Assembly: GCF_964019925.1 (NCBI RefSeq)
Contig: NZ_OZ026470.1
Location: forward strand, 186,001 to 250,000
DNA: 64,000 nucleotides
Origin: Spiroplasma endosymbiont of Cantharis nigra
GTDB taxonomy: Bacteria; Bacillota_I; Bacilli_A; Mycoplasmatales; Mycoplasmataceae
Direction: 5' to 3'
The translations under genes and the position numbers were made by a program. Positions 1 through 51,906 of this stretch are shown one piece after another (position 1 is the stretch's first letter; every line of letters begins with the position of its first letter). The notes below the pieces were generated by a model that saw only the letters and a program-made list of their open reading frames with translations, did not search any database and was not told the origin of the DNA.

Positions 1-873
1 GAAGTAAAAAGAGACAATAAAAAGTATATAGAGTTATCCTTTGAAGGTAAAAAATTTTTAGAGGAATATTTAAAGGGGAATTTTGAAACTGCAAAAGAAA
101 ATTTTATATATTCCTTAATGAAAGTTTCTTATCCAAATGCTGCAACAAATGAAGTAAAATTATCTTTATTTCCTTTTAGAATCATTTTTAGAATTTTTCT
201 TGAAAAGAAAATTATCTCTAAAAGCGAAATGGATCATTCAATACCTTATATTACAAAAAAATCTGATATTGAAGAAATTTTAGCTAATAAATTTAATGAG
301 AAAAAAAAGTATGATAAATTCAGAACATGAGTTATTAATTCATTAGTTGACCTAAAAATTTTAAGTTTTGATGGTAATTTTTATTCATTATGCGAAAATA
401 CTAGAGATTATGTATTAAATTATATTGATTTTAAAGATGATTTAGATTTATATTTTTTTGATTCTTATATTAAAAATACATATATAGACAAATTAAATTA
501 CTATAATTATTCAAAAATTAAAAGAGATATAAAGCTTGTAAAACAAGTTTATGAGAGAGATAACTACAAGTGTTTTTTTTCAAAAGAGCATTTTTCATTT
601 TTTACAGAAGATGGAAATATGTACTTAGAGGCTCATCATATAATTCCGATATCTCTTACACCAATTTATAAAATAAAACTTGATCTACTAGAAAATATGA
701 TAAGCCTTTGTCCTAATTGTCACAAAAGTATGCACTATTCTGAAAATATCAACAAATATATGATGCTAGAAAAAATTAAGAAATTTGAAAATAGTTTTTT
801 TAAAGAAAATTTATATCTCATGGAAGATATACAAGATATCTACTTAAATAATTCATATTTAGGAAGAAAGTAA
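1..873 (+). CDS. HNH endonuclease, 5' end outside window
   Basis: The frame is open from base 1 to TAA at 871-873, reading TGA at 328-330 as Trp, so the start lies upstream. The last third carries an HNH-type nuclease module: a Cys in YKCFFSKEHF, then EAHHIIPIS (the two metal/catalytic histidines), then ENMISLCPNCHKSMHYS, whose CxxC and final His look like the zinc-supported beta-beta-alpha metal fold of McrA-like and type II restriction HNH enzymes. The upstream part matches nothing I recognise and may be the DNA-recognition domain. No methyltransferase is visible downstream, so it could be a modification-dependent enzyme or the second half of a restriction operon whose methylase lies to the left. 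The nuclease call is well supported; substrate and specificity are not. Confidence 0.75.
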
Positions 874-2157: not shown

Positions 2158-4221
2158 ATGATAACTAAAAAAGCTAAGTATGGAATTAATTATCCAATGC
2201 TTAAAGAAATAGGCAGAATGCAATATTCAAACTATATAAATGCAATTAGTGAGCTTGTAGCTAATTCAATAGATGCTGATTCAAAAAATATTTATATTTT
2301 TATTAAAAAGAATAAAAATTTAAAAGGGGAAATAAGAATTGTCGATGATGGATTTGGTATGAGCGAAAATTTTATTTTAGAAAATTATGTAAAAATAGGT
2401 TTCAAGAAAAGAAAAAATGACTTATATAGAGATAAAAAAACTATGGGGAGAAAAGGAGTTGGAAAATTAGCTGCACTTTATCTAAGCGATAATTTTATAT
2501 TAACTTCAAAAACTGAAAAGGATTCTAAATTAAGCACTTGAGAGTTTATTTATGAAAAAAATAAACAGAATAATATTGAGGAAGAACCTACATTAAATAA
2601 TATTGATAACAATAAATACAAATTTAAAATTGAATCAGATCTTAATTTTAAATCAGGAACAGAAATATTTATGAGAAATGTGGATTTCAATAAATTTGAC
2701 GTCGATAAAGTAAAAGAATTAAAAAATAGCTTAACTAAAATGTTTACATTAGAAGGACTTAAAGAAATTAATTTAATGTTTTGTTTAGAACATTTTGATC
2801 CAAAAAAAAGTGAATGCTTGAAATTAGAGAAGACAATTGATTTTGAAAGGCTTATTAAAGTTAACTATATAAATATTAATGAGAAATTTAATAGCCAAAT
2901 TACAAAATTTAACGAGCAAGAATTTTCCTTAAAGGCAGAAGAAATTAAACTTGACAAAGAGATAATTACAGATGACTTAGTTTCTCAAAAAGTGACTCTG
3001 AAAAAAGAATCAATAAATTTAAATGATGACTCAAATTTTGTAAAAATTATGAATGAAGATATTAAAAATGTTGAACTTGATGAATCAGATGGTTATCAGG
3101 ATATTAAAGCAGATAATATTAAAATTAAAGGTTGAATTGGAATTGTTGACTCCATAAATAAAAAGGCTTGAAATGAAAAAAAATGTCAACCTTTTGAAAA
3201 CAAAATTAGATTATATATTAATAAAAAACTAGCTTATGAAAATATATTGGACTACAAACCTAAGAATCAGGTATTTGAGAAATATATTGAAGGTGAAATA
3301 GAGTTTGATCTTTTAGATGATTCTAATTATATAGATATAACAACTACTAATAGACAGGATTTAAATAAGGAAGACCCGAGATTTGTTAGATTATACGATT
3401 TAGTTAAATACATTATTAGTGATTTAGTTAAATTTAGAATTAACTCAGTTCAAAAAATAGAAAAAGAAAATAAAATAAAGAAAGATAAAATTGTTAGCAA
3501 TATAAAAAATAACATAATAACCAATGTTTCTAGTCATATTGAAAGTGATGTAACAAAAAAAATAGTATCTGATGTTTTAAATAGAGATTTAATAGGAGAT
3601 ATTTTAAAAAAGGAATCTAAAATATTTATTTCACATTCTAGTCAAGATAAGTGATTTGGAGATTTTTTAAGGGATATGTTAATATACTTTGGTTTAAAAA
3701 GAGAGGAATTATATTATACATCCGATGAAGGAATCAGTGAATATAAACCAAAAACTAATATTTATGATGATATGAGAGAAATTTTAAAAGATAAAAAAAC
3801 TTATATTTTATATTTAGTTACTGAAAATTTTTTAGGAATAACCGATGAGACTAAACATAAAAGTCAGGTTACTCTATTTGAAGCAGGAGCTGGATGAGTA
3901 CTAAAATATGAGGATAATTCATATACGCTGCTTGGTGATTATGATAGTATTGAAAAATATTTAAAGCCTATTAATAGAGTACATGATACATCAAATTTCA
4001 TTGCTAATAATAATTTAATTAAAATGAGCTTAAATTTTTTTAATAAGCATCTTCTGAATTTTTTTAATGATTTATTTAAACATATAAATCAAAATAGAAA
4101 ATTAATAGGGGAAAAAGAAATCCCCACATTAGTTTTTGCTAAGAATGAAAAAGATAAAGTATATCAAAAAATTGAGAAATTTTGAAATGGATATATTAAA
4201 AATAAAAGATTAAAAAAATAA
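2158..4221 (+). CDS. GHKL (Hsp90/MutL/MORC-like) ATPase fused to C-terminal TIR domain
   Basis: 687 residues in table 4. The N-terminus is a GHKL ATPase: N-box ISELVANSIDAD (Glu32, Asn36, Asp39), then IRIVDDGFGMS (Mg/ATP-binding DxGxG, about residues 58-68), then KTMGRKGVGKLAAL (the G2 lid, about 89-103). The middle (about 170-470) is charged and probably helical, without a domain I recognise. Near residue 488 a TIR domain begins with KIFISHSSQDKWFGDFL, and a conserved acidic position follows in VTLFEAGAGWVL (about residue 578), where the NADase glutamate of enzymatic TIRs lies. GHKL domains dimerise on ATP binding; enzymatic TIR domains cleave NAD+ or make signalling nucleotides. The inferred role is an antiphage sensor/effector in which ATP-driven dimerisation or DNA clamping activates the TIR. 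It is followed after 17 nt by an MrcB-like gene, probably in one operon. An Hsp90-type chaperone is unlikely because of the TIR fusion and island context. Confidence 0.82.
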
Positions 4222-4238
4222 TATAGGAGTATAACAAT

Positions 4239-5390
4239 ATGATTTGAGAAAAAATTTTAAAATTTAATAAGGAGTTTAAAAGCATTTCTGGTTTAAAGCC
4301 GTTATTAAAAGTAAATGACCAAAAAACTCTTGAAGTAAAAAAAATACTGAAATCCATTGCAGAGGAAATAATGCTGTTTTTTAATTTAGATAAAAATAAA
4401 ATAAATTTATCAATAGGCCAAGGGAATATTACTTTCACTCCATGAATTGGAATAGATGAAACAAATGACTTATTTATGACTATAATTTTTTATCCAATAG
4501 AAGATGGACTAACAATAAATATTTGCCAAAAAACAGAAAAACTTACAAAAAATAAAGAAGGTAAGCAGCTGCTTATAAAAAATAGAGAAGTATTGAGTAA
4601 TTATTTAAATAATAGCTTTAAAGATTTAAATTGAAAAAATTCTTATCCAAAGTCATTTGAAGAAAATAAATGAGATAGAGGGGCGAGTTATTCAAAAAGT
4701 TCACCAATTTCTATATTTCTAAATATTGAAAAATCTAATTTTGAAGAATTTAATAATTATTTTTTAAAAGTAAAAAATTTCTTTGATTTTATTAAGAAAG
4801 ATTGAAAGTTTAAATTTGCAACTCCCGATAACTATATCGATATTTTTTCAAAGGAATCTAAAAAGGATTATAACGATGTGTTTGATGTAATTGATAAATA
4901 TTACTCTTATAGTTTTTTTGAATCAAAAGATATCTTACTAAATTTAAAGGAGTTTGATATGGAAAATACAAAAAAAGCAAACTATAATGGAATTAATAGA
5001 TTAAAGCATAAAGAAATTTTAAATAATAAAGTCCTAAATGGAGATAAAGCTGAAGATCATGTTGTTTTTTTTGAAAAAAAAAGTCTTATAAATGAAAATA
5101 GATTAGATCTCGCGAAAATGGTAAGAAAACTTGATACAGATGGTGACGGTTTTGATGTTTTAAGTTATTTTCCTGATGGAAAAATAAAAAGAATAGAGGT
5201 AAAATCATCTAAGAATGTTAAAAATAAAACCATTTACATAAGTCAAAGAGAATGAGAACTTTTTGAAAGTGCAAAATCAATAATTTACTATGTAAATGAG
5301 AGTCATAGACAGGTTAAAATAATAAAATTTAAATATCCAGATTTTAATAAAAAAAATTTAATTCCCACTTTATATAAAATCAATTTTTAA
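4239..5390 (+). CDS. MrcB-N-like (DUF3578) DNA-binding protein with C-terminal DUF3883 domain
   Basis: 383 residues; the ATG at 4239 follows an AGGAG site (4226-4230). Residues about 60-100 contain INLSIGQGNITFTPWIGID followed by a strand-rich segment, the signature of the MrcB/DUF3578 N-terminal domain of modification-dependent restriction proteins ('GxGNxxxxPWIxI'). The C-terminus (about residues 295-375) has DTDGDGFDVLSYF...IKRIEVKSSK...ISQREWELF...YYVNE, the DUF3883 pattern, a PD-(D/E)xK-like fold whose D...ExK residues can be seen as GFDV and IEVK. An effector nuclease or DNA-sensing role is therefore plausible. It follows the GHKL-TIR gene closely and most likely acts with it, perhaps recognising modified or foreign DNA while the TIR kills the cell. 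No GTPase (McrB AAA+) gene is present. The domain calls rest on motif recognition only. Confidence 0.72.
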
Positions 5391-5403
5391 AAAAATGTGT
5401 GGA

Positions 5404-6835
5404 TAATAAGCCATTATGTCTCAAAATACAAGTTTTATCTAATAAGTAGATCTTGTGTTTTCTCTTTTCTATCAAAAAAAATCAGTTTGTTGCTTTTCAA
5501 AGAGACTCAATTTTGGGTATTTTAGTAATTTCAAATTTCTCATTAGATAATGTTTTTATACTTATATGTGAGCAATTATCTCCCACTTGAATAAAATTGT
5601 AGATGTCATTTCTAATTAACTCATAATTTCTTTATTACTAGTTTCAATAATCATTACTTTTAACTTTGGTTTAAAGTAATTGGAGTAAAACCTTCAAATA
5701 TAAATCACTTATCTTTTGTAAAACTAATACTGTGGCCATTATCAATAATTCTTTCACTTCGATAAGAGAAAACAATATCCTCCTCTTTAACAAATTTTCT
5801 AGTTACTGATTCTAATTATCTAAAGGTATTGAGAAATCTTTATTGTATTCCTAAATAAGATGGAGTAAATAATTATTTAATTGTTTAAGATTTTTCAAAT
5901 CTAAGAGTCTAATTATTTGAGGCCTTCTTCTTTGTAATGTTCCAAAAAATTTCTCAGCTAAAGCTTTTTCTGAGGTATAGAAGTTATTTTTGTACTTACT
6001 TCAAGAAAGTGGAAAGTAAATGGCAATTGTGCATTGAAACATTATCCCCAAAATGGTCTCAATTATTTTTACTACTAAAAACGTTTCGATTATCACTAAC
6101 ATTTAATTTTGGTAAGCCATAATGTTTAAAGGTTTTTTTATAAATATTATAATAACTCTTAGTAGTTTTTTGCTCCTTGAAATAACCTCCCAAAGTCCTT
6201 TTACTAGATTTATCAATTACAATATGTAAATGACATTTTAAGTTTTTAATTCACTGATGATTTGAAGATCAGTTTCATAGATTTCTTCAAATTTTCTAAT
6301 TTTTTTTTGCCTAGGATGAGGTTTGCTTGTTATAATTGAATTTAAAAGATACTCGCTTGTTAAATTTTCTTGGTTTTGTCCTTTAAATTTTTACCAATAT
6401 CTTTTTTTGTTTTTCTGTTAAAAGCCTAAATTAAGATATTTCTTCTATTAATATTTGTCTGACTGCAGAGTAACTTATTTTACTTTCTCAGTTTAATTCT
6501 TAATAATTTTTAATACTAAAGTCATAATATTTAGTTTGAAATAATTTTATTATTGCATGTTTAAAGAGTGCTAAATTTAATTGTTATTTTACGAATAAAA
6601 AACTTATTTTCAAGCTTTTGATATTTTTTAAGTTTTTGTCATGTGTGTCTAAAACTATAACCTAATTTATAGGTTATATTTTTAAGAGATTCTTTCTTAA
6701 AGATAGTTCCTTAATTAATCTTAGTTGTTTTTGTTTCATCTCATTTAATAGTAATTCTTTCATAAAACCTCAATTTATTAACCATAAAGAAGGATAAATT
6801 TGCTTGTTAATATATAGGGAAATAACAGATTATTA
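5404..6835 (-). mobile_element. Full-length but decayed ISNCY (IS1202-like) element
   Basis: The ends are TAATAAGCCATTAT (5404-5417) and, as reverse complement, TAATAATCTGTTAT (6822-6835). The inside is a minus-strand transposase broken by many stops and frameshifts; segments equivalent to the copy at 19047-20484 can be followed along the whole length (e.g. the reverse strand of 5890-6130 reads as the VERTFGTLQRR / SDNRNVFSS region with errors). No intact coding capacity remains. It fills the gap between the GHKL-TIR cassette and the Z1 cassette. Confidence 0.85.
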
Positions 6836-6924
6836 CTCATATTTAACATAACTTTTTTTATTCATATAAAAAAATAAAAAATATATAGTGTTATAATTAA
6901 ATCAGTTATAAAAGGAAAATATCA

Positions 6925-8661
6925 ATGGAAATTAAAAAATTATCTGCACTTCATTTATTATTGTCTAATTCGCAATTTGTAATACCGACTTTTCAAAGAC
7001 AATATAGATGAGGCTTAGTTCAACTTGAACAATTTATTGAGGCATTAGAAATTATTAGAAAAAAAGATATTGACGAATATTTTATTGGAAGCATTATATT
7101 TTCTGAAAGACCAAGTAAATTAATTGTATTAGATGGTCAACAAAGGCTTACTACAATGTTTATATATACAGTAGCTTTTTCAAATTTTTATAAAAAGCAT
7201 AATAGTTTATTATGAGATGAAAATAATTTATTTAATTTAGATAATAAAATAAGATTTATTAATAATAAAATTAAATTGGAATCATTAGATGATGATAAAA
7301 TTTTTTTATCTCAGTTATTCAATAATGAAATAAATGAGTTAGCTAATAATAAAATTGCAAAAGCATACATATTTTTCATAAATTATTTTCAAAAAAATAT
7401 TAGTTCTATCGATGAGCTCAATTTTCTCAATCTATTTAATAAATTATCTATAGCATTTATAAAAATTGCTGATTCAAAAATGGACCAATTAACTTTTGAA
7501 TCAATTAACTCAACTGGAAAAGCGTTATCTTTAACTGATCTAGTGAGAAATTTTATATTAATGGGTTATAAAGATCCCGTTACTCAACATTTAATAAAAA
7601 CTGAAAAATGAGATATCTGATCTAAATTATTAGGTGAAAAAATGGATGATTTTTTAATTAAATTAGTAACAATATGATCTGGTAAACAACCTTCAGTAAA
7701 TTCACAAAAAGATGGAGAGAAAATGCAAAATAATTATAGAGAAATTTATGATTTATTTAAAAAATATTCTTATGAAAAATTTAAAAATAATTATGATAAT
7801 TTAATTTTTGATATTCACTTATATGTAACTTCATATTTAATTATATTAAAGGGAAAATTTGAGGGTATTTTTTCAAAGAAATTTGAAAGAGATACAATAA
7901 ATTTAAAATCATTCAACTCGTTTAATATTACAGGATATCTGCAAATTTATTTAGTAAAAAAGATGCTAATGGAGTCAATTTCAAATGAGGAACTTGAAAG
8001 ATATACAAATTTGATAGCAAATTTTTATATAAGAAGAATTGTATTATTACCATCTTCAGGAACAAAGGATATTCAACGAAAATTTCCTTTAATTGTTAAA
8101 AAGTTGAGAGATAATGAGGATGTTTATAGATCATGTATAAATTATGAAAGTATTTTAAAAAAAGAACTATTTACTTCAAATAGTGAGAATCAAAATGCTG
8201 AAAATAATTATGAAATTTTAAAACAAAATAAATTATATGATTTCTCTGATTTGAGCTTAACAAAAGAATTAATATCAAAATATTATTTAGACAAAAGTAA
8301 TTTTAATTATAATAATAAATCTGATGAACTTTATGAAGACTTTCTATTATTTAAATCTTTAACTAATGGAATTATTAAAAATAAAATTATATCTAGTTCT
8401 GAAAAGAAGGATTTGGGTCTAGTTGAACCAGAGCAAGTTATAAAAATAGAAAGAATGATTGGAAGTTTTTTTGTATTTGATGAGAAGCCCAAAAAGGGTC
8501 AAAAATATGAAAATAATATTCCTTTACTTACTTTAAATTATTTAAAAAATTCAATGAAATATGAAGATATTGTTAAAATTGATAAGAATTTATTTGAAAA
8601 TAGATCAAATAAAATAATTGAGCATTTTTTGGAACAATATCCATACCCTGAGGAGGAATAA
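6925..8661 (+). CDS. DUF262 (GmrSD/ParB-like) domain protein
   Basis: 578 residues with table 4. The ATG at 6925 follows AAAGGAAA. The N-terminus contains FVIPTFQRQYRWG and LIVLDGQQRLTTM, the two hallmark motifs of DUF262, the ParB-like nucleotide-binding domain of the GmrS half of type IV restriction enzymes. LTFESINSTGKALSLTDLVRNFI fits the rest of that domain. The C-terminal part has the general shape of DUF1524 (IGSFF...IPLLTLNYLKNSM...ENRSNKIIEHFLE), but I do not see the His-Asn-His nuclease residues, so nuclease activity is doubtful. It is the first gene of a tight operon; the next ATG begins 3 nt after its stop, with the GGAGG ribosome site inside its last codons. Likely role: NTP-dependent sensor of foreign or modified DNA working with the downstream GHKL and Z1 proteins. 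Confidence 0.8.
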
Positions 8662-8664
8662 AAA

Positions 8665-10530
8665 ATGGACAGAAGTGGTGGATTAAATTTAGCTGGACTT
8701 TTAAAAACATTTACAACTGATAATTATTTTCTAATAACAACTATTGGAGAATTTATTGATAATTCAATTTCTGCATGTCAAATTGCAAATCTTAAGGAAT
8801 TACACTTTGAAATGATAGTGGATTATGAAGCAGAAAAAATATTTTTTATGGATAACGGTCCTGGAATTGAATCAAAAGATATTAAAAATAAATGAATTCT
8901 TTTTAATAAATATGATCAACTTGATAATATAGGTTTTAATAGAAAGCATGTCGGTTTTAAAAGGGGAGGATTTTGATTAGGGAAAAAAATAGAGTTATAT
9001 ACAAAAACATTATTATCTGAAAGTGGAACATATTTGGATATTGATGAAATTATATCAAAAGAAAATGATAGTTTTTCTATTGAAAAATGTATGGAAATTC
9101 AAGAAATTAATAATCAAAATTTGGTAATATTTAGAAATTTAATTAGTAAAATTTCTAAGCATGGAACTGGTACAATTTTTGCAATCTCAAAAAGTTATTT
9201 TGAATCTGCAAAAACTTTTAATGATAAAATTTTTCCATTAAAAAATTCATTCAAAATTGATGGTAAATATAAAGATAATAATATTTTGTTATTTCTTTAC
9301 TTGAAATATTATAAGTTTATTGAAGGAAATGAGAATTTAAAATTAAATATTGAAATAAGAACTACAGTTAAAGATCAAAAATTGTCTATATCAAAAAAAG
9401 ATTTAAAGCTTGGGAATTATATTTTTAATAAGGAGGACTTTTTAAACCAGTTTGCAAATTTTGATTTTGATGCTTTGGAAAAAAAATATTCAGACTTCTA
9501 TGGAACAAATGTTCAAGAGGAGTATTTAAATACGTTTGGAATAAATATTGAAAAAATTATAGAGGATCTTAAAAAGGGTATTGCATCTTGAAAATTTAAA
9601 ATGCCATATCACTCTATGAGAGGTGAAAGCAAGACGGAATTGCTAGATGTAAGCTTTTCATTTCTAAATAATAAATACATTGAGGAATTCTCTGTACAAG
9701 ATATTTTTTCTGGAATTGTATTGATGCAAGATGGAAGAGCGATAAATATGGGAAATTATAATAAAAAAAATCCAAGCACAAGTGTTTTCTCAAGAATTAG
9801 TCAGAAAATAATTGGCTTTAATAGAACTGGAGATTATGTAACTCTTGATAAATATTGAACAGCTGAAATTAATTTGGATACAGATAATGAAATTCTATCA
9901 AGAGAATTTCAACCTATTGATGATAAAAGCAAGTTTGCTAATTCAGAAGTAATTCAAGATATTACAAAAGCATTCTCTGATTTTATATCAAGCAAATTAT
10001 TATTAAATCAAATTGGTAATGAAATAGTTGATCATCAAAGATCAGAAAGTAATAGAGTATCTTCATCAAAATCTAAAAAAAATTTAAAAATAAACTCTAT
10101 AACTATTAATAGTGAAAAGGAAATTGTTTCAAATAACATAGAAAAATTTATAAAAAAAAGTGAAGTTAAAATTGGTATTTCTGAAAAGTCATCGAAGGAT
10201 AAAAAATATTTTACTTTACTAAATAAGACACTAAAGTTTAGATTTGAATTTACAAATAAACAGAGTAAGATGATTGATTTTAAGTATAGTTTTGATAGGG
10301 TTATAGGAGAAAACTCATTGTTAATAACTTATAATTTGAATTGCCATTTTTTTAATAAATCAAAAAATTTGGAAGAAATTTATTATAAAACTGCTTTTAT
10401 GATGAGTATACAAATTGCTGAAGAATTATATTTAAATCTTCAAACTTTTGAAACTAACTCTAGAGCAGAGCAAGAAACACAACATTTTATAAATAAACTT
10501 TTAGTATTTAAGGAATATTCATATGAATAA
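8665..10530 (+). CDS. MutL/MORC-like GHKL ATPase
   Basis: 621 residues. GHKL motifs: TTIGEFIDNSISAC (Glu and Asn of the N-box), IFFMDNGPGI (DxGxG), and HVGFKRGGFWLGKKI (lid glycines). The remainder is long and without a named domain; it lacks the TIR found in the other GHKL protein of this window. Families of this type with a neighbouring Z1 gene were predicted from comparative genomics as MutL/MORC-related restriction components and later assigned to antiviral Mza-type systems. The gene overlaps the Z1 gene by 8 nt (10523-10530), strong evidence of translational coupling. Expected role: ATP-gated DNA clamp or scaffold. Good confidence for the ATPase, moderate for the defence role. Confidence 0.82.
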
Positions 10531-11959
10531 GGTTTGGGAAATTGATTTAAATTTTTTTAAAAAAAAATTAAAAAATAACAGTACACAATTACCAGAATAT
10601 ATAAAAAGTGATTTAGTAAATGGAATAATAGAAAAATTAAAGGGAACTAATAATTTTTCTAACAATTATTTTGAAAATATTGTTGAAACTAATTTGAAAA
10701 GAATAGATAATGCTATCAATAATATATTTAATAATAAAAAAGGACTACTAATTTTTGGAAAAGTTCAATCTGGTAAAACTATTAACTCAATCTTTACCAC
10801 CGCAATGTTATTTGATAAGGGATATGATATAGTTATTTTATTATGTGGAACAACTAATATTTTAAAAAAACAAAACTCTGATAGATTTGAAGAGTTTAAA
10901 TTTCATTTTAATGATAATGGTTTTATTAAAATGAAAACATTAGCAGATAAAAACATAGTATCTTTTATTGATGATATTGGAAATAGGAACTTTAAATCAA
11001 AAATTTTTATACCAATATTAAAAGAGAAAACTAATTTAGAAAATTTAATTAATATAGTAAACACATCTGTTTTTATCAATAAATGCAAAATTGCTATAAT
11101 TGATGATGAGTCAGATATTGCAAGTATTAATTATAATTTTATGGAAAAAGAACAAGAAGAAAGAAAAATTCCTGTTCTTATTAAAAACTTGTTAAGTAAA
11201 GTTGAAAATTCAAACTACATAGCTGTAACAGCAACTCCATACAATAATATTATTTTTAATAGACAAATAAAAGATGAGGGAATTAAAATTGATTATATTA
11301 TAGGATTAGAAAATGATCTAAATTATCATGGTTTTAATTTTTTTCATCAGAATAAGAGTAAATATATAATTGAAGTAAAAAATAAGGAAATGAAAAAAAA
11401 TATAATCTCACTTATTGAAATTTTTAAAGAAAATTATAATTCATATATTGAAAAAAAAGAAAATTTTTCTATTCTTATTAATACATCTGTTTCTACGACT
11501 GAACATTCAAAAATAAATAGGATTTTAAAAAAGGAACTTGAGATTTTATCTAAAGAATTAGACTTATTGAGTGATAATTACTCAATAAATATTTATAATT
11601 CAAAAAGTGAAGATGAGATATCTTTTTCCAAAAAATTTAACTTTATAATTGGGGGTAATTTACTAAGTAGAGGTATAACATTTCCAAATCTAGTTTTAGA
11701 GCTAATTACAAATTTTAATGAAGATGGATTTAACCCATCAACAATGATACAAAGGTGCAGGTGATTTGGATATAGAGATAAAGTTAAGGAAATAATTAAG
11801 ATATTAATGCCATCTGACCTATCTAAATTTTATAGTTGTATAAGAAATGTTGAAAATATGCTTTTTGAAGCAATTGGCAATGGCATAGAAGTAGATAATT
11901 CATTTGTAGAGAAATTAGCAGGAGAATTTGAAAGAGAAGGTATCAAGTGAAATGCATAA
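10523..11959 (+). CDS. Z1 domain superfamily-II helicase-like ATPase
   Basis: 478 residues in table 4 with every expected motif of the Z1 family: Walker A in GLLIFGKVQSGKTINS, DEAD-box-like IAIIDDESDIAS, motif III AVTATPYNN, and the family-specific FIIGGNLLSRGITFPNLVLE followed by MIQRCRWFGYRDK (arginine-finger motif VI). The typical Z1 protein is often longer at the N-terminus. It starts inside the end of the GHKL gene and overlaps the next gene by 8 nt, so the three are cotranslated. Probable function: ATP-dependent DNA remodelling or translocation in a MutL-Z1 defence complex. Confidence 0.88.
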
Positions 11960-12905
11960 ACTCATTCCAGTAGAAAAGTTTAAAAGTGAATATTTTGATG
12001 TTTGTGATATAGAAGTAGAAAAATCACTAAAGTATAGAATAATAAAATTTAAGGAGCAATATGTAAATAGTCTTCAAGATACATATCTGCCAAACTATGA
12101 ATGAACTTTGACTATGAATAAGAACTTGGAGTATTTTAGTGACACTCCTTTTAAAGTAGATGGAGTGGAAGATAAAGTTGTTGAAGTTATAAAGTACAAT
12201 GTAATTGCTAAAGAAAATGATAATGAAGTACAGGAAGACTTTTATGCAACAGATGAATTTACAATAGATTTGTTAAGGGCAATAGACATAATATTTGAAA
12301 ATAAGAGAATGAATCTTGGATGGATCTTAAATTATTATATAAAAATGTTTGATGGAAAAGAATTAATTAAGGAATATTATTTTTTTAAATTTGGAGAAAT
12401 AATATTCCTATCAAAATTTAAAAATGATAAAATTAAAATAAACAAATTAATAGAAAATTTTAATAAAAAACTAGGATTTGATTTTTATGATAATAATGGC
12501 GGAGCTAATTTTAAAATTAAGGTAAAAAATAATACAGATAGAAATTTTAAAATTAAGTATGATACTTTTTCTGAGCATAAAGAAACAGATTTTTTAGTTT
12601 GTATTAATTTAAATATTTCTAAAGTTGGTTATTTATTAAGTAAATTTAGTGAAGATTTAATTCCTTTTCTTGAAAGCAAAGATAATATTGACAAAATAAA
12701 GGGTATTATAATTTATGCAAAATTTATGGAAAATAAATTATTAAACAGTTTACTTTCAGTTGATATTGAAAACTCTATTGTTGATTTTTTTAGTTCTAAT
12801 GATTTACCATTGATATCTTCAAACTCTAATAATATTTTTAATTTAGTTTTTGAAATTGATGCTAATAAACAATCCAATATACAATTAGAAAGTTTAATAT
12901 TTTAG
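11952..12905 (+). CDS. Unrecognised protein of the GHKL-Z1 operon
   Basis: 317 residues; the ATG at 11952 overlaps the Z1 stop by 8 nt. Rich in Lys, Asn, Asp and Phe, no membrane segment, no clear nuclease motif. In related MutL-Z1 operons this position is taken by a conserved DUF protein (in some a PD-(D/E)xK-like DUF4420); I cannot confirm that relationship by eye. An AIPR-type gene, present in some such systems, is not seen. The tight overlaps make it a component of the same system. It uses a TGG codon as well as TGA for Trp. Confidence 0.65.
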
Positions 12906-13482: not shown

Positions 13483-13616
13483 TGTTCCTTAATTAATATT
13501 AGTCGTTCTTATTTCTTGGGATTTAATAATAATTCCTTCATAAAATCTCCATTTATTGATTATAAAGGAGGCCAAAGTTGCTTATTAATATGTAGGGACA
13601 TAAGCGATTATTATTC
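13483..13616 (-). mobile_element. Fossil right end of ISNCY-like element
   Basis: About 130 nt match the transposase start region and terminal repeat of the other copies (block ending GTAGGGACATAAGCGATTAT). Same orientation as all other copies. The remainder has been lost. Confidence 0.8.
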
Positions 13617-13771
13617 ATAAGTATATAGTATTTTTTATTAATATTTCTATAATAATGGAGTTATTTATAAAATATGAGTGTACTAAAAAAACAATAGAAT
13701 TTTATTTTGTTAATTTGAAGTTATAATTATTTTGAAAGTTCATAATATATTTAGAATTATAGGGGTAAAGA

Positions 13772-19041: not shown

Positions 19042-19046
19042 TTTAG

Positions 19047-20484
19047 ATAATAAGCGATTATTTCCCAAAATAGAAGATTTATTAAATAAATAGATCTTGT
19101 ATTTTTCCTTTTCTATCAAAAACATATCAGTTAATTGCTTTCCAGGGAGAGTTAATTTTGGATATTTTAGTAGTTTCAAATTCTTCATTTGATAGTGTTT
19201 TCATACTTTCATGAAATGTTCATCTTTAACTTGAATAAGATTGTAAATGTCATTTCAAATTAATGCATAGTGTTTTTATTTATTGTTTCCATAATCATTA
19301 CTTTTAACTTTGGTTTAAAGTAAATTGGAGTATAGCCCTTACATATAAATTACTTAGCTTTTTTAAAACTAATACTATGACCATTATCAATAATTCTTTC
19401 ACTTAGATAAGAGAAAACAATGTCTTCATCTTGATCAAATTTTCTAGTTACTGATTCTAACTGCTCTAAAGGTATTGAGAAATCTTGATTGTATTCCTGA
19501 ATAGGATGGGGTAAATAATTATTTAACTGCTTAATATTTTTTAAATCTAGGAGTCTAATTATTTGAGGTCTTCCTCTTTTGTAATGTTCCAAAAGTTCTT
19601 TCAACTAATGCTTTTTCTTGAGGGATTGATGTTGTTTTTGAATTTACTTCTAAAGAGTAAAAAATAAATTGCAATTGTGTATTTGAAACACTATCACCAA
19701 AAAGGTCACGCTTATTTTTACTACTAAAAACATTTCGATTATCACTAACATTTAATTTTGTTAAATCATAATGTTTAAAGGCTTTTTTATAGATATTATA
19801 ATAACTTTCAGTAGTTTCTTGTTCGCTGAAATAACCTAACAAAATCCTTTTACTAGCTTTATCAATTACAATATGTAAATGACATTTTAAGTTTTTAATT
19901 CATTGGTGATTTGAAGTATCAGATTCATAAATTTCTCCAAATTTTACAATTTTCTTTTGCGTAGGATGGGGTTTGCTATTTATAATTGACTTTAAAAAAT
20001 ACTTGCCTGCTAAATTTTCTTGGTTGGTTTCCTTTAAAATTTTTACAAATATCTTTTTTTGTTTTTCTGTTAAGAGTATCAATTAAAATATTTTCTTCTA
20101 TTAATATGTGCCTAATTACAGATTAACTTATTTTCTTTTTTCAAGTTAGTTTTTAATATAAAGTTATAATATTTTGTTTGAAATAAATATTTAAAGAATT
20201 GCTGAATTTTATTTATAGGTATTTTATTGGTATTTTTATGAATAAAAGCTTTTGCTCCAATTTCTTGATATTCTTTAAGTTTTATTCTTGTGTGTCTAAC
20301 ACTATAACCTAATTTAAAGGCTGTATTTTTAATAGAGTCTTTTCTTAAAGATAATTTCTTAATTAATCTTAGTTGTTCTTGTTTCATGGTAATTAATAGT
20401 AGTCCTTTCATAAAGGATCGATTTATTGATTATAAAGGAGGGCAAAGTCTCTTGTTAATATGTAGGGACATAATCGCTTATTAC
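19047..20484 (-). mobile_element. ISNCY (IS1202-like) insertion sequence, full length, inactive
   Basis: Bounded by the perfect 14-bp inverted repeat TAATAAGCGATTAT (left 19047-19060, right complement ending 20484); about 1.44 kb. Contains one minus-strand transposase broken by frameshifts. It serves as the best reference for the other copies in the window. Flanking bases do not show an obvious long target duplication. Confidence 0.85.
19350..20411 (-). pseudogene. Frameshifted ISNCY/IS1202-like transposase
   Basis: Read from 20411 leftwards: MKQEQLRLIKKLSLRKDSI... (N-terminal helix-turn-helix with KNTAFKLGYSVRHTRIKLKEY), GAKAFIHKNTNKIP, a middle with ESDTSNHQ, LNVSDNRNVFSSKNKRDLFGD (the DDE catalytic Asp region), EKALVERTFGTLQKR (catalytic Glu), and the C-terminus LEQLESVTRKFDQDEDI. 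These pieces lie in different frames, so at least three frameshifts or stops separate them. The order and the ALVERTFGTLQ motif fit the IS1202-like ISNCY transposases. Not functional. Confidence 0.7.
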
Positions 20485-20580
20485 TCATAAAAGAACTTCA
20501 TAAAAAGAGAGATTAAATTCCTAAGGAGAAAGATAATATAGTAAAATATAAATAATGATAAATAAAAAAGGAATATTATT

Positions 20581-21255
20581 ATGAAATATAAAGGTGAAGA
20601 AAAACAATTATTAAATTTTTTTGAAAGTAAAGGAATGAAGATTACCCTTAATAAAGGCACTATTGATCTTTGCGCTGAAAATAATTCAGGAACTATAGTA
20701 AATTGATATAAAAAAAGTGGAACCTTATATATACAAGGAACTAAAAATGAGCAATTTTCTGTTGATTTAGAAAATTTTATTAATGGAGCAGAGAATGAAA
20801 ATTTTAAAACTTTAAGCCATAATATATATATAGTACATGGACACGATTTAGATGCTAAGGAACAATTGGAAAATATTTTATTAAAATGAGATTTAAAACC
20901 AATTGCAACAATGGATCAGCCAAGTTCAGGGGGAACAATTATTGAAACTTTAATAAGAGATTTAGAGTCTTGTGATTATGGCATAGTATTATTAACTCCT
21001 GATGATGAAGGAAATTCTAAAAAAGATGGTCCTGAAAGCAGACGCCCAAGAGCAAGGCAAAATGTTATTTTAGAGTTGGGAATTTTATTAGGAACATTAG
21101 GAAGAAAAAATGTAATGGTGGTTAGAAAAAGTGATATTGAAGAACCTTCTGATATTCACGGAATTTTATATAAAGCTTATAGCGAAAAAGTTTCTGAGAT
21201 TAAAGACCATTTAAGAAAAGAGTTTAAAGCAGTTGGAATACAGATAAAGGAATAG
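20581..21255 (+). CDS. TIR-like predicted nucleotide-binding protein (PF10137/CAP12-like)
   Basis: 224 residues, ATG at 20581. Residues about 1-75 form a small domain with GTIVNWYKKSGTLYIQGTKN, reminiscent of the TBP-like N-terminal domain of RNase HIII, a nucleic-acid-binding fold. From about residue 80 the TIR-like domain: NIYIVHGHDLDAKEQLE, a central GGTIIETLIRDLESCDYGIVLLTPDD and the hallmark RARQNVILELGILLGTLGRKNVMVV, whose Glu (in ILELG) is the predicted NADase residue. Relatives occur in CBASS and other abortive-infection loci as NAD-degrading effectors. Here it stands alone between IS elements; no cyclase is visible nearby. Function in defence is inferred. Confidence 0.8.
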
Positions 21256-22630: not shown

Positions 22631-24115
22631 ATGGAATTTAAAATAATTTGTCCACATTGTAAAAAAAGTATAACAAAAGAGGATTTTGCATCAGATGAGC
22701 ATTCTATTCTTGAACTTCAAAAATATTTTAAAAGTGAAGAAGAGGAATTTAAAAATAAACTTAAGAAAGAATTAATAGGCGAATTTAATGAAAATTCTAG
22801 AAGATTAATTTTAGAAAAGGAAAAAGAGATTTCTGATAAGAAAATTGGAGAAATTAAGAAAATTGAAGATGAGCATAAAAAGGTTATTGATAAATTACAA
22901 GAGGACTTAAAGAAATTAGAAATTGAAAAAGAGACTTTTGATAAAAAAACAAAGTTACTTATTAAAGACAAAGAGTTGGAAGTAACAAAACAAAAACAAG
23001 AAGAAATTGATAAATTAAAAGATGAATTAAAAGATTTTGAAACAAAAATTAAAACTAATGAAGGAGATCTAAAAAATAAAATTTTAGAAAAAGAGAAAGA
23101 GATTTCAGATAAAAAAATTGGAGAAATTAAGAAAATTGAAGATGAGCATAAAAAGGTTATTGATAAATTACAAGAGGACTTAAAGAAATTAGAAATTGAA
23201 AAAGAGACTTTTGATAAAAAAACAAAGTTCCTTATTAAAGACAAAGAGTTGGAAATAACAAAACAAAAACAAGAAGAAATTGATACTTTAAAAGATAAAT
23301 TAAAAGATTTTGAAACAAAAATTAAAATTAATGAAGGAGATCTAAAAAATAAAATTTTAGAAAAAGAAAAGGAATTTTCTGATAAAAAAATTGGAGAAAT
23401 TAAGAATATTGAAGATGAGCATAAAAAAGTTATTGATAAATTGCGAGAAGATTTAAAGAAATTAGAAATTGAAAATAGTAAATTTAGAATTATTCCTCCT
23501 AAAACTATGGGTGAAAATTTTGAAAAAGAATTTAAATCAGCAATTAAGGAAATATTTTTAAATGATAATATTGTAAAAATAACTTCAGGAAATAAGCGTG
23601 CAGACTTTAAACAAGAAATATTTGAAAGTGAAAAACATATAGGTCAAATTATTTATGAAGTTAAAGCTGGTGAAAATTGAGATGATAAATGAATTTCAAA
23701 ATTTGAAGAGGATATAATTTCTAAGTCTGCAAAATACGGTGTTTTAGTTGCTAATTCTTTTAGAACAAAATTTTTAGATGTTCCTTTTGAAAAAATTCCA
23801 GGAAAAAATATTTTTGTTACGGATTATACAAGTTTCTCATTTGTAGCACATATTTTGAGAATTTTAATAATTAAAGAACATACTCTTTCTTTAAACTCAG
23901 AAAATTCTGAATTTAGAGAAAAAATGACAAATTTTATAGAATGAAGGGATCAAAAATTCTCTCAAATTGTTTCAGCAATAATTAAAAATTCTGACTTAAT
24001 AGTTACATCAGCAAGTAATTTAGAAAAAATTAAAAAAGATATAATAGATTCTGCTAATATTATCAAAGAAAATATTATAAATAAAATTCAAGTTGAATTG
24101 GATACATTAATTTAG
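22631..24115 (+). CDS. DUF2130 coiled-coil protein
   Basis: 494 residues. Starts with MEFKIICPHCKKSI, a possible CxxC zinc site. Residues about 30-285 are a continuous charged coiled coil built from a 91-residue unit repeated two and a half times. The C-terminal part (about 290-494) has the DUF2130 appearance: GENFEKEFKSAI, KRADFKQEIF, GQIIYEVKAGENWDDKW, AKYGVLVANSFRTKF, a nuclease-like E-x-K arrangement (YEVKAG) suggesting a PD-(D/E)xK-type fold. Function is unknown; relatives occur in mobile and phage-linked regions. It is bordered by the IS3 element and decayed IS DNA. The start follows AAAGGAATGGTAAAAAA. Confidence 0.75.
22811..23479 (+). repeat. Tandem 273-nt repeat inside the DUF2130 gene
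   Basis: Units start at 22811, 23084 and 23357 (third is partial). Each encodes LEKEKEISDKKIGEIKKIED... with only scattered base changes. The period is exactly 273 nt (91 codons), so unit gain or loss keeps the frame. Confidence 0.92.
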
Positions 24116-25318: not shown

Positions 25319-25359
25319 CTCATAAATAATTTATAGTATTATTTATAAAAGTTTGTAGA

Positions 25360-26792
25360 TAATAAGCGATTATGTCTCAAAATACAAGATTTATCTAATC
25401 AATAGATCTTGTATTTTTTCTTTTTCTATCAAAAAAATATCAGTTAGTTGCTTTTCAAGGAGAGCCAATTTTGGGTACTTTAGTAGTTTCAAATTCTTCA
25501 TTAGATAGTGTTTTATGATTTCCATGTAAGCGTTCATCTTCAACTTGAATAAGATTGTAAATGTCATTTTCAATTGATGCATAATGTTTTATATTTATTG
25601 TTTCCATAATCATTACTTTTAGCTTTGGTTTAAAGTAAATTGGGGTAAAGCCTTCACAAATAAATCACTTAGTTTTTTTAAAACTAATACTATGACCATT
25701 ATCAATAGTTCTTTCACTTCGATAAGAGAAAACAATATCTTCATCTTGATCAAATTTTCTAGTTACTGATTCTAATTGGTCTAAAGGTATTGAAAAATCT
25801 TGATTGTATTTCTGAATAAGATGGGGTAAATAATTATTTAACTGTTCAATATTCTTTAAATCTAAGAGTCTAATTATTTGAGGTCATCTTCTTTGTAATG
25901 TTCCAAAAGTCCTTTCAACTAATGCTTTTTCTTGATGTATTGAAGTTGTTTTTGTATTTACTCCTAAAGAGTGAAAAATAAACTGCAATTGTGTATTTGA
26001 GACACTATCACCAAAATGGTCACGATTATTGTTACTACTAAAAACATTGCGATTATCACTAACATTTAATTTTGGTAAACCATAATGTTTAAAGGTTTTT
26101 TTATAGATATTATAATAACTTTTAGTAGTTTTTTGCTTATTGAAATAAACTGCCAAAATCCTTTTACTAGCTTTATCAATTATAATATGCAAATGACATT
26201 TTAAGTTCTTAATTCATTGATGATTTGAAGCATCAGTTTCGTGGATTTCTCCAAACTTTAAAATTTTCTTTTGCGTAGGATGAGTTTTGCCTGTTATATT
26301 TGAATTTGAAAGATACTAGCGTGTTAAATTTTCTTGGTTGGTTTCCTTTAAATTTTTACGAATATTTTTTTTGTTTTTCTGTTAAGAGTCTCAATTAAAA
26401 TATTTTCTTCTATTAATATGTGCCTAATTGCAGAGTAACTTATTTTCTTTTTTCAAGTTAGTTCTCAATAATGTTTAATACTAAAGTCATAATATTTTGT
26501 TTGAAATAATTCAATTATTTCATCTTTAAATAATTGTTGAATTTTATTTATAGCTATTTCATTGGTATTTTTATGAATAAAAGCTTTTGCTCCAATTTCT
26601 TGGTATTCTTTAAGTTTTCTTCTTGTGTGTCTAACACTATAACCTAATTTAAAGGCTGTATTTTTAATAGAGTCTTTTCTTAAAGATAATTGCTTAATTA
26701 ATCTTAGTTGTTCTTGTTTCATGGTATTTAATAGTAGTACTTTCATAAAACCTCCATTTATTGATTATAAAGGAGGACATAATCGTTTATTA
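25360..26792 (-). mobile_element. ISNCY (IS1202-like) element, full length, inactive
   Basis: Left end TAATAAGCGATTAT (25360-25373), right complement end ATAATCGTTTATTA (26779-26792). The subterminal block that other copies carry before the right end (about 25 nt ending GTAGGGAC) is deleted here. The minus-strand transposase is in pieces: 26465-26746 (N-terminus MKQEQLRLIKQLSLRKDSI), 25884-26192 (SDNRNVFSSNNNRDHFGD to ALVERTFGTLQRR) and 25600-25880 (C-terminal part). Stops and shifts make it non-functional. Confidence 0.85.
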
Positions 26793-27027
26793 TTCATAAA
26801 ATATTTCAGATTATTATTAATAAAAGTTATATAAATATTAATCGATATGATAAAATATTTTATGAATTAATTAAATTGTGCAAATTTTATTAAGTAAGGG
26901 TTTTAAAAAGGTACTTGTTCTTAGGGAATATGTTTTTAATAATATCTATATTTTTATTTTTTGCAGTTTAAAAAGTAAATTTTAAATTAGGCTTATAAAG
27001 CTATTTTTAAAATAAAAAGGAAATATT

Positions 27028-30000
27028 ATGAAGAATATAGATATTATTAAAAAGTTTAAAATAAGATTAATTAAAACAAATAAATCGGGTACATTATTTT
27101 ATAATTCTTTTTTAGAAACCCAAAACTCAATTGATTTAAATGATATATTAAAAGTTCTTAATCTAAAAGAGGATATATTAAAGATGTTTTTAAAAAGGAA
27201 TATAAAAATTGATTTCTCTGATTTGAATTTGAAGGATATTGATAATAAAATCTTGGAACTCGTAAATGAGCACAGAAGTCAAACAATTGAAGAGTTAAGT
27301 TTTAATATAACAACAGTAAAGCTTTTACATGAAAATAAAATTTTTACTGTTGAAGAACTTATACAAACAGAAGAAGCAAAAATAAGAAATTTTATTTCGT
27401 CTAATACAAAGAAAATTGAAGATATTATCAATACAAGAAATGAAATTATAAACTTTTTAAAATCAGACGATAAGAAAAAGGAAATTATTAAAATAAAAAC
27501 TAAAAAATCTAATAATCTATTATCAAGATTTAAAAAAATTGATAAAAAAAGCAGACTGCAAATTGAGCAAAAAAATATAAAGGGATTGGGAATTGGATAT
27601 CCTTATATTACAGGTAAGCTTTCATCGGGGAAGGAAGAAATTTTTAGAGCTCCTTTATATATTTGAGATATTGATATTTCATTAGTTGGATCAAACTTAG
27701 AAATAAAAATTGGTGACCCAGTATTAAATAATTCCATACTTTCTATAATTGCAACAAGTAACAATATTGAATATGATTTTAGAGAACTTGAAGATAATAA
27801 TTCAATATTAACAAATGATTATATAGAAAATTTAATTAAATCTATCTCAGTAAATAAATTTAAAAATCCTTACAATGATAGTTTACTTCACTCCTCATTA
27901 GAAAAACCAAGAAAAAATTCTAATAGTAAAAAAATAGATTATGAGGATTCAACTATAACATTAAATAATATAATTAGTTTTGGTATGTATGATGTAGCTT
28001 CATCATCAATATTGGGTGCTTATAATATAATTGAAGAAAAAGGAGATTTAGAATTTATAAATGATTTAGTAAAAACAGAGTATGATTGATTAAGTAATGT
28101 AAAAAATGAATATAAAGATGAAAATATTAAATTAATTTCATACTTAGATAACTCTCAGAAAATTGCTGTGGCAAACTCTATTAAGAAATCATCATATATT
28201 TGAGGACCTCCAGGAACTGGGAAATCTCAAGCTATAACAAATATATTAGCAAATTTAATTTATTCTAAAAATAAAACTTTATTTATAACTGAAAAGCAAG
28301 TAGCATCTGAGGTTGTATATGATAGAATGGGTAAATTAAATAATTTCGCTCTTAAGTTATATGCAAAAGAAAATAATCAAAGTTTTCACACAAAAATTAA
28401 AGCAACTGTTAATATAGTGGCAAATTATATTAGAGGATCAAGTTCAGAATTTAATCGTATAAAGGCAAGTAGGGATAGTCAAAGTGATTTAATTAAAAAT
28501 ATTGAGACCATTTTTGAAGAAATAAAATCATATAAAAATTTTATTTCTATGCAACAATCCTTAAAATATTTAAATATAGTAAAAACAATTAATATTAAGG
28601 AAAATCAAGTTTTGATAGATAGATATCTAAACTGCAGTTTAAAATATGCTAAAAAACTATTTGATATAATTGATAAATCTTTAAATAATTTAAGTGGTGT
28701 AGATTTAGCTAAAGAAATGTTTACATTCTTATGTTATATAAATAATAATTTTAATAATGATAGTGAATATTTTAAATATAGAGAAAAATTTTTTATTTTC
28801 AAAAAAGATAATCAATTATTTAATTTTATTGAAGATTTGAGTGTTGTTAATGAAAAAGAATTAAAAAATTATAAAAATAGCTTTCTCGATGTATTAAAAT
28901 ATGAGAAGTTTTTTGAAAACTTTACAGAAATAGAAACAATTATGCACTTTTTATCAGAGTTCAAACCGGAAGATTTAAATTTATATTTTGATTTAATCAC
29001 TTCTCATAAAGATATGGAAAAAAACAATAGTATATTTAAATTTATTGAACATATAAATGATAATTTTGAAAATATTATTGATGAAAGTTATATAGATTTA
29101 CTGAAACAAAATAAAATGATAAAAAATAGTAAGTTATTGTATAACAGAATTAATAATAAAGTAGATACATATAAAATTAAGTTATCTCAATATTTTAAAT
29201 TTAAAAAGTGAAAAAAGGGAAGTCTTAACTTTTTAAATCAATTTTCCTTATTAATAACTAATGCGAATCAAACAAAGAAAATATTGAGGCTAATAACAGA
29301 ACCAAAAAATAAAAAAATTTTTTTTCAATTAAATGATTTTGAATTTTTTAATATAACAAAAATAACTTATGAAACACTAAATTCATACTCTGATGAAAAT
29401 ATCAATACTCAAAAAATAATTTTTAACCAACTTAAATCTAATAATATTTATTTTAATATATATCAAGATTTTTTAACATTAGAAGATATTAAAAAAATAT
29501 ATTTAATTCTAAGTGAAATAGATTCGGAAAATAATTTTATAGATTCAAATTTATTTAAAGATTTTATAAGAAATATTAAAGATAATCAGGAATTATATCA
29601 GTTTTATTCAGAAGATTTAAATTATAAAAAAATTAATCATATATGAGCTCTAATTTATGAAAGAGTCAATGAAAATCAAATTAAAATTATTAAAGATACA
29701 TATATGGAAAAAATGTTGAATTATTATCAAAAAATATCTGAGGGTGGAGAAAATGAAATATTTTTTGAACATTTAGAAAATATTAAAAATAAACTTTTAT
29801 ATCCGAATTCTAATCCATATTCTACTATGTTTCGACAATTAATTAAGAAAATAGATTCTGTTAAGGTAACCGTTAGAAAATCTACATACTTTAAAAATTA
29901 TCTTCCAATTTTAAAAATTATCTTCCCAATATTTATTTCTTCTCCTGAAGAAATATCTAATAATTCTGTAATTCCACTTAATAAAGCAGAATTTGACTTT

Positions 30001-31266
30001 GCAATATTTGATGAAGCATCACAAATTTTTACCGAAAAAGCTATACCTGTTATGTATAGAAGTAAAAAATTTATTGTTTCTGGAGATGATAAACAATTAC
30101 CACCAACTAGCTTTTTTAAGGCAAAAAATTATGATGATTATGATTTATTAGAGGAAAACGTAGAAAATCATGAAGAAGGAGAAATAGTTGATGCACTTCA
30201 AAATGAAAGTTTATTAGATTTCTCAAAACCTCGTTTTGAAAATTTTATGTTGAAATATCATTATAGAAGTAAATTCAAGGAGTTAATTAATTTTTCTAAT
30301 AAAAAATTTTATAATAATGAATTAGTAGTTGTGGATCAACCTGAAAATTATAAATTACCTATAGAAGTATTTTTTGTCTCTGGAGTTTGAGAAAATCAGA
30401 AAAATATAGTTGAAGCTAATAAGGTTATTTCAGTTATTTTGGATTTAATAAACAATAAATACTCAAATTTAATTGGCAAAAGTATAGGGGTAATCACTTT
30501 TAATCAAAAACAACAAGAATTAATTGAAAATAAATTAGAGGAAATAGCCTATAATAATGAAAAACTAGCACAGCTTATTAATCCTAAAAACTCTGATGAA
30601 TATTTGTTTATTAAAAACATTGAAAATGTTCAAGGAGATGAGAGAGATATAATAATTTTCTCTATAGGTTTTGCCATGGATACAAATGGTGTTTTTTCAA
30701 ATAGATTTGGTCCAATTGGACAAAATGGTGGAGAAAGAAGACTTAATGTAGCTATTTCAAGAGCTAAAGAAAAAATGATTGTTATAAAATCAATTAATTC
30801 AAATATAATAACTACTAAACATCCTAGTTCTACTTTATTTAAGGAATTTCTTGAGTATGTTGAAAGACTACAAAATATTGATAACTCATTAGATCTTTCA
30901 AATGTTATTAACTATAAGAATGAAAAAATAACCAATATCTTTTTAAATGATGTATTTGAAGAAATATCAAGAAATTTGCCAGATCATTATTCAGTTATAA
31001 AGAATTTAAAAGTTGATAAGCATGAAATAAACTTAGTTATTAAAAATAATTTATCAAATGAATATTGTCTTGGTATAATGCTTGATGAATTTGAAAAATT
31101 TCTTAATGAAGAAGAAATAAGAGAGCAATTTAATTTTTTTAATTTTTTAAAGGTTAGAGGATGAGAAATTAAAAGAATTGTTTCAACAAATTGATATAGT
31201 TCTATAAATAACAAAAATAGAAGTATTATAATTGATAAAATATTAGAGATACTACAAAAAATGTAG
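27028..31266 (+). CDS. Large SF1 helicase with C-terminal Vsr-like (MTES_1575) domain
   Basis: 1412 residues in table 4. The first ~370 residues are of unknown fold. Helicase motifs: Walker A IWGPPGTGKSQAITNI (near residue 393), then a very long helical insertion (about 430-980), Walker B FAIFDEASQI, motif III VSGDDKQLPPTSFF, motif V NVQGDERDIIIFSIGF, motif VI GGERRLNVAISRAKEKM. The last ~110 residues (HEINLVIKNNLSNEY, GIMLDEFEKF, KVRGWEIKRIVSTNWY) match the outline of the Vsr-like MTES_1575 endonuclease domain, but its catalytic Asp positions appear changed (usual RIDLAV reads EINLVI; usual CDG reads LDE). Helicase-Vsr fusions of this sort, often with DUF4011/DUF3320, are known antiphage proteins (Hhe type). 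It is alone between two IS copies. Defence role likely; nuclease may be dead. Confidence 0.82.
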
Positions 31267-31885: not shown

Positions 31886-32058
31886 CTCATAAATTCCAAT
31901 TCTATAATCCATTAAAATTATAAAAAAACTAAGAATTTGATTTATAATTTTAATGGAAAGAAATTTTAAGAAAATTAAATAAGTCATAATATATAAATTA
32001 TCTCTTTTTCAATTTATATATATGGACTTCTTTAAATGCATATAAAAGGGGAAAAAAT

Positions 32059-35325: not shown

Positions 35326-35354
35326 TTAAAAAATTTATGTTATTATAAATATGT

Positions 35355-35447: not shown

Positions 35448-35476
35448 ATTTTAAAATAAGAAAGGGGGATATTTAA

Positions 35477-51904: not shown

Positions 51905-51906
51905 AT

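Follow-up and report, generated by a model that had tools for sequence, protein, structure and literature searches.

Since 2008, operons combining a MORC-type GHKL ATPase with a Z1 helicase have been regarded as predicted restriction systems. In the available sections of the survey that described them, prokaryotic MORC operons are predominantly restriction-modification systems with endonucleases (PMC2292703). In CglI, according to the accessible part of its description, a DEAD-Z1 ATPase is complexed with a separate nuclease and cleavage requires ATP hydrolysis (PMC4267653), and excerpts of two further reports indicate that DUF262 domains of SspE and its relatives sense DNA modification via nucleoside triphosphate (NTP) hydrolysis (PMC10952713, PMC11662687). 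Here we analyse a four-gene operon at positions 6925-12905 of a 64,000-nucleotide stretch (hereafter, the window; G000:C1:186001-250000) of the 1.24-Mb genome of Spiroplasma endosymbiont of Cantharis nigra. The operon, which encodes a DUF262 protein, a GHKL ATPase, a Z1 helicase and a fourth protein (X4), appears to have lost both of its nuclease sites and to have kept every ATPase motif, so that sensing and motor functions would be separated from cutting.

Layout and occurrence of the operon

The host is a small wall-less bacterium. The long frames of the operon stay open only with TGA translated as tryptophan, which marks a code-4 organism, and translation with table 11 breaks the four open reading frames (ORFs) into fragments. 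Under code 4, four tightly joined ORFs lie on the + strand, as the first-pass annotation of the window had proposed. Specifically, a DUF262 (GmrSD_N) protein of 578 residues (6925..8661; assigned from Pfam, a structural model and motif columns) is followed by a 621-residue GHKL ATPase with a MORC signature (8665..10530; Pfam, a Protein Data Bank (PDB) sequence match and motifs), a 478-residue superfamily II helicase-like protein with a Z1 domain (10523..11959; Pfam and motifs in 22 loci), and X4, whose C-terminal half is predicted to adopt a DUF4420-like PD-(D/E)XK fold (11952..12905; hhalign, controls, a model and a motif). The junctions are a 3-nt gap and two overlaps of 8 nt and 8 nt, the last of them with X4 starting at ATG 11952. 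The X4 frame is open from TTG 11928, and ATG 11952 is the preferred start because the homologue in a second copy, in genome G033, starts at the same residue. The GC content of the operon is ~21-24%, and a promoter scan found 68 promoters against 61 expected, an uninformative difference.

The Z1 protein, used as a query against 60 genomes of the family, gave matches in 24, from which 29 regions were fetched and their neighbours mapped. Only one of these regions (locus L032 in G033) has the identical four genes in the identical order, with protein identities to the window of 40% for DUF262, 40% for GHKL, 43% for Z1 and 29% for X4, indicating that the unit is more than chance and bearing out the earlier proposal of a fixed four-protein unit. 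In G033, an HNH_2 gene (2.5e-9) heads the operon, 5 nt before the DUF262 gene. In a tree of GHKL and Z1 from 22 loci, the window and L032 form one clade with a support of 1.000 on a long branch.

The four-gene unit is known from these two copies, in one genus. Two-row profiles found close relatives only in G000 and G033, both among 320 genomes of the order for GHKL (next best 47.8 bits) and among 392 genomes of the phylum for Z1 (next best 133.6 bits), and in a class draw of 395 genomes the window's own genome was the only close match. Pattern scans need short exact peptides, and a negative from them means little: those of genome contigs and viral contigs found no relative, nor did a plasmid scan for GHKL. 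The plasmid scan for Z1 gave only distant proteins, in 11 of 72,556 records, four of whose regions were read, and the phage scan for Z1 gave four weak records.

In 22 of 30 Z1 loci, a GHKL gene of one cluster adjoins Z1. Thirteen of the 20 such loci other than the window and L032 have a protein of ~250-320 residues next, in the position of X4 (slot 4). DUF4420 is matched by the slot-4 proteins of L040 (4e-13), L033 (4e-6, just under the cut-off) and L039 (9e-4, below the cut-off), and scans of those of L053, L036 and L042 gave no DUF4420 match. The gene preceding GHKL differs between loci, being a C5 methylase (L040), a Dam methylase (L036), an N6 methylase (L042), a PAPS reductase (L033), an HNH gene (L041), an AIPR gene (L039) or, in the window and L032, DUF262, which therefore sits in a variable first slot. 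Furthermore, DUF262 is the last gene of the run GHKL-Z1-DUF4420-like-PAPS reductase-x-DUF262 in L052, L053 and L055, so that the gene occurs in G033 and in three more GHKL-Z1 operons and is not absent from related operons, as the first-pass annotation had allowed that it might be.

The PAPS reductase-like gene beside a DUF262 without HNH residues in L052, L053 and L055 suggests a modification-linked system, which we could not match to a described one. The arrangement PAPS reductase-GHKL-Z1-DUF4420-like is found without DUF262 in L033, L034, L035 and L037. L113 (G032) has a single run in which two DUF262 genes and two C5 methylase genes alternate. The window's genome holds a second, longer Z1 protein (843 residues) of a different kind, with a C5-methylase-cluster gene nearby (L051; G000:C1:290000-309000).

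ATPase motifs and nuclease folds

The leading gene had been called DUF262, and its product matches Pfam GmrSD_N (4.4e-29) over residues 12-211; GmrSD_C is not matched. The N-terminus is a ParB-like NTPase with DGQQR intact at residues 70-74. The structural model, with a predicted local distance difference test score (pLDDT) of 79.3, aligns over its C-terminal two thirds (residues 198-577) with SspE_CTD (Z 20.3, root-mean-square deviation (rmsd) 4.0, 344 aligned) and also resembles DndI (Z 19.4, Foldseek E 7e-11) and BrxU (Z 11.6). The match to the SspE C-terminal domain indicates that the DUF1524 part retains its fold, and the model thus predicts the whole SspE/DndI/GmrSD fold. The HNH catalytic residues of DUF1524 appear from the alignment to be lost in both copies: the histidine is replaced by G in the window and S in G033, and the asparagine by S in both, at a site around which the model falls below pLDDT 50 (residues 463-477, 485-487 and 519-544). 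The first-pass annotation was right that HNH residues are lacking but had missed the retained fold.

We aligned 28 DUF262 proteins, namely five from GHKL-Z1 operons and 23 of over 440 residues from 20 stretches of 19 genomes, out of a total of 41 that match DUF262. All 28 proteins keep DGQQR, 19 the HNH histidine and 23 the asparagine. The histidine is missing in all five proteins from GHKL-Z1 operons versus four of the 23 others (L107, L112, L116, which is truncated, and L120), with a hypergeometric value of 0.0013 for five proteins that come from only two lineages and are not independent. This pattern, together with the retention of DGQQR throughout, fits DUF262 as a sensor only. None of the 20 stretches holds the four-gene unit; in one of them (L115) a Z1 gene lies ~6 kb from the DUF262 gene and belongs to another system. 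A whole-genome search with the GmrSD_C hidden Markov model (HMM) gave no match, and hence no intact DUF1524 partner, where the control matched six of 14 genomes. The PADLOC labels of the DUF262 protein, Orf5 (1.2e-39) and HEC-06, are not traceable to a described system.

Judged by their motifs, both ATPases look intact, and the GHKL-Z1 core named in the first-pass annotation is upheld by Pfam (HATPase_c_3, 1.1e-7; Z1, 3.4e-18). The GHKL protein has the ATP motifs EFIDNS, DNGPGI and GFKRGGFWLG. Its sequences GIVLMQDGRAI (window) and GVSIVQDNRII (G033) conform to the MORC motif GhXhhpXXRhl, as defined in the available sections of the 2008 survey (PMC2292703). Among PDB sequences, the GHKL profile matches human MORC3 best (5ix1, E 0.0082), a weak but fitting result. 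The Z1 protein has GKVQSGKT (Walker A), IDDESD, VTATPY and QRCRWFG (arginine motif), and STMIQRCRWFG (window) and ATMIQRCRWFG (G033) fit the Z1 motif DThhQXuRhFG, with a difference at the first residue. The letters of the helicase and methylase motifs are read from the sequence.

X4 has no Pfam match. Aligned by hhalign with ten slot-4 proteins, the X4 pair gave a probability of 95.2 and an E of 2.5e-8 over 175 columns (residues 146-323). In comparisons with one sequence at a time, slot-4 proteins score up to 33.6 and the best of 110 control neighbours 21.6, only seven of 13 single slot-4 proteins lying above that best control; a comparison restricted to the c22 slot-4 proteins of L036/L038 gave no match (probability 0.1). 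An AlphaFold model of X4 (pLDDT 70.6, predicted template modelling score 0.68) compared with PDB chains by VIA-align has PD-(D/E)XK proteins in all of its top 15 rows, over the C-terminal half, the best fold matches being I-Ssp6803I (Z 8.8, rmsd 2.8, 113 aligned), Hjc (8.7), DpnI (6.1) and EcoRV (5.1); plain Foldseek with the model gave no match at E <= 0.001. The model was built on an alignment that included intact relatives and is thus no independent evidence for the family assignment; hhalign made no use of the model. Profile and model together predict that X4 is a DUF4420-like PD-(D/E)XK fold protein. It is not of a housekeeping family, the other outcome that the first-pass annotation had considered, and the DUF4420 guess made there holds at the fold level, although it missed the loss of the ExK site.

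The catalytic columns read E-D-ExK in 13 of 13 other slot-4 proteins, E-D-KxK in the window and R-D-KxL in G033. Window X4 keeps E157, D185 and the lysine, and the ExK glutamate alone is replaced, by lysine (K-I-K). Over the 45 residues from the conserved D, G033 has no [DE]xK and the window has one, EHK at 216, which lies outside the site. Moreover, the divergence of X4 outpaces that of its operon partners (26.5% identity between the two copies, versus 41.9% for Z1, a ratio of 0.63, compared with 0.89-1.03 in nine other pairs). From these residues, X4 is best read as a pseudonuclease. It is quite improbable that one of the degenerate nucleases still cuts with non-standard residues: the three residues kept in the window and the intact predicted fold would allow it, but three of the four motif residues are lost in G033 X4 (R, D, K, L), neither copy has [DE]xK at the site, and the fast divergence of X4 points the same way.

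Modes of action and the surrounding island

From the sequence and by analogy with described systems, we tentatively favour a reading of the operon as a restriction-type MORC/Z1 complex that defends against foreign DNA, and that would sense modification and depend on a cutter encoded elsewhere. The four-gene machine is probably antiviral. Both of its own nuclease domains look worn out, so that it would either borrow a cutter or stop foreign DNA without cutting. In the favoured scheme, the DUF262 protein would bind DNA according to its modification state and switch on NTP hydrolysis, the MORC ATPase would close on the DNA as a dimeric clamp, and the Z1 protein would be an ATP-driven motor or switch, with the two dead nuclease folds (X4 and DUF1524) as DNA-binding or assembly parts, that is, as a scaffold. 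A separate HNH nuclease would cut: in G033 the best candidate is the gene directly upstream, and in the window, where the partner is uncertain, it may be a C5-methylase-linked HNH protein 6 kb upstream. Seven of the 22 GHKL-Z1 loci (L041, L043, L045-L048 and L050) have no DUF4420-like gene in slot 4 and have HNH-cluster and C5-methylase-cluster genes near GHKL-Z1 (one HNH Pfam-checked), which makes it plausible that an HNH protein does the cutting for such a core.

Both operon copies have C5 methylase and HNH genes in their vicinity. In the window, the candidate trans nuclease is an HNH endonuclease gene at 118..873 on the + strand (Pfam HNH 2.3e-9), listed there as its C-terminal part; its frame is open upstream past the window start, and it is 72.5% identical to a 382-residue homologue in L040. 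A complete C5 methylase (3.9e-51; L061:18178-19251) ends ~250 bases before the window, and the HNH gene then follows. In G033, the neighbourhood of L032 holds a C5-methylase-like gene and the HNH gene. Several observations weigh against a borrowed HNH cutter. The HNH genes near one copy and those near the other belong to different sequence clusters, and a search of the window's genome with the G033 HNH query, for which there was no positive control, gave no match. L040 in G029 has counterparts of the window's methylase, HNH and NOV_C genes, with identities of 83, 73 and 76%, and there the module stands beside a GHKL-Z1-DUF4420 operon with an intact slot-4 nuclease. The window's module may thus be an independent restriction system, and an insertion sequence (IS) remnant lies between it and the operon.

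The loss of the nuclease centres in both copies, with all ATPase motifs kept, would also suit a MORC system that does not cut, in which a DUF262 sensor would load the MORC clamp and the Z1 motor to trap, compact or silence foreign DNA, the former nucleases acting as DNA-holding scaffolds. Eukaryotic MORC proteins entrap and condense DNA, as the accessible part of a report on C. elegans MORC-1 describes (PMC8277788), and the match of the GHKL profile to human MORC3 is in line with this. Such a system would be a bacterial counterpart of eukaryotic MORC-based silencing. We nevertheless consider it unlikely, if plausible, since HNH genes adjoin or lie near both copies, endonucleases accompany most prokaryotic MORC operons in the 2008 survey, and we found no data in the literature on DNA trapping by bacterial MORC proteins.

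Alternatively, the operon could be what remains of an earlier restriction system, decaying and without function. Directly upstream, the gap at 5391-6924 is an eroded IS, a degenerate element with transposase fragments on the - strand (5391..6847) that repeats at 25347-26822 (84%) and 19046-20489 (83%), and directly downstream lies an IS end remnant on the + strand (13484..13619) that is 82% identical to 6706-6841. The genome has 15 matches to the IS end sequence, roughly half of which fall in or close to the window, and copies or remnants of this IS in the window include 5391-6847, 19046-20489, 25347-26822, 31355-31891 and 51544-51907. With the eroded IS upstream and IS ends on its flanks, the operon is part of a defence island that has been shuffled. 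A second C5 methylase is present there as a broken fragment (48% over 50 residues) at ~1625-1800, in a gap beside an IS end. These remnants would suit decay, but none of the four frames is interrupted in either copy despite ~60% protein divergence, and decay is not expected to keep the ATPase and DGQQR motifs and lose only nuclease residues. We therefore regard decay as distinctly unlikely.

Other genes of the island resemble defence genes. A second GHKL protein at 2158-4221 has a C-terminal TIR-like part (PADLOC spbK 5.1e-15, residues 413-637) and scores 163 bits, below the cut-off, against the BbrUII/HgiDII profile. It is followed by a NOV_C (DUF3883-like) protein at 4239-5390, and the two resemble the paraMORC4-TIR arrangement in the available sections of the 2008 survey (PMC2292703). 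Probable defence genes are those for a CAP12/Pycsar-type TIR protein (20581-21255; 5.6e-36), a DUF2130 protein (22631-24115) and a DUF4011 helicase with an MTES_1575 nuclease (27028-31266; ProA/Hhe-like). At 32059-44126, a Cas9-like gene and small downstream genes may represent a type II CRISPR locus, and tandem repeat finder detects there a very long array of ~98 repeat units with a period of 66.

Comparison with described systems

The first-pass annotation had called the operon Mza-like. According to the accessible part of their description, MZA (mzaABCDE), in which mzaA is a sigma-factor protein, and the Z1/DUF4420/methylase systems share GHKL, Z1 and DUF4420-like components with the operon (PMC9523054). 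The operon differs from MZA in having DUF262, no AIPR and lost nuclease residues, and its scores with the NCBI profiles are far below cut-off (MzaB 12 bits, cut-off 850; MzaC 59.4 bits, cut-off 1500). As had been noted, the expected AIPR partner is not seen: an AIPR (MzaE) HMM gave no match in the whole genome, the same search matching one of 14 control genomes. No sigma factor (mzaA) was matched by Pfam in the four operon proteins, and no dedicated sigma-factor search was made. The window's genus has an MZA-like arrangement, AIPR-GHKL-Z1-DUF4420-like, in L039 (G029), so that this layout exists in the genus and differs from that of the window. A standard MZA system whose AIPR was missed would account for the shared components and the MzaC score but for neither the missing gene nor the lost slot-4 residues, and is very improbable. 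MZA proper is a more distant relative than the MORC/Z1/RE-fold (restriction-endonuclease-fold) operons, and 'Mza-like' is thus unsupported in the strict sense and holds in the broad sense of such an operon (PMC2292703, available sections).

The DUF262-DUF1524 modification-dependent nucleases GmrSD, SspE, DndI and BrxU have the DGQQR NTPase motif and the fold that is predicted for the DUF262 protein over its full length. The DUF262 protein differs from them in the loss of the HNH histidine and asparagine and in its operon with MORC and Z1 ATPases. CglI and NgoAVII, as far as the accessible part of their description goes, offer a likeness in the DEAD-Z1 ATPase that drives a partner nuclease and in the C5 methylase, whereas the CglI nuclease is a PLD nuclease with a B3 domain and no GHKL or DUF262 is among its three genes (PMC4267653).

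Because its GHKL protein carries the MORC signature, the operon belongs with the MORC/Z1/RE-fold operons of the 2008 survey, with which, in the sections available, it shares the MORC-motif GHKL, the Z1 superfamily II helicase, an adjacent RE-fold protein and a C5 methylase nearby (PMC2292703). It differs in being led by DUF262, which those sections do not name, and, relative to type 3, in the loss of the RE-fold catalytic residues and in a methylase outside the operon. We found no description in the open-access literature of a DUF262-led form with both nuclease sites lost. Such a variant makes it testable whether a bacterial MORC complex acts without a nuclease or borrows one. Measured against the available sections of that survey, the kind of operon has been known since PMC2292703, and the variant that is led by DUF262 and lacks both nuclease sites appears to be new.

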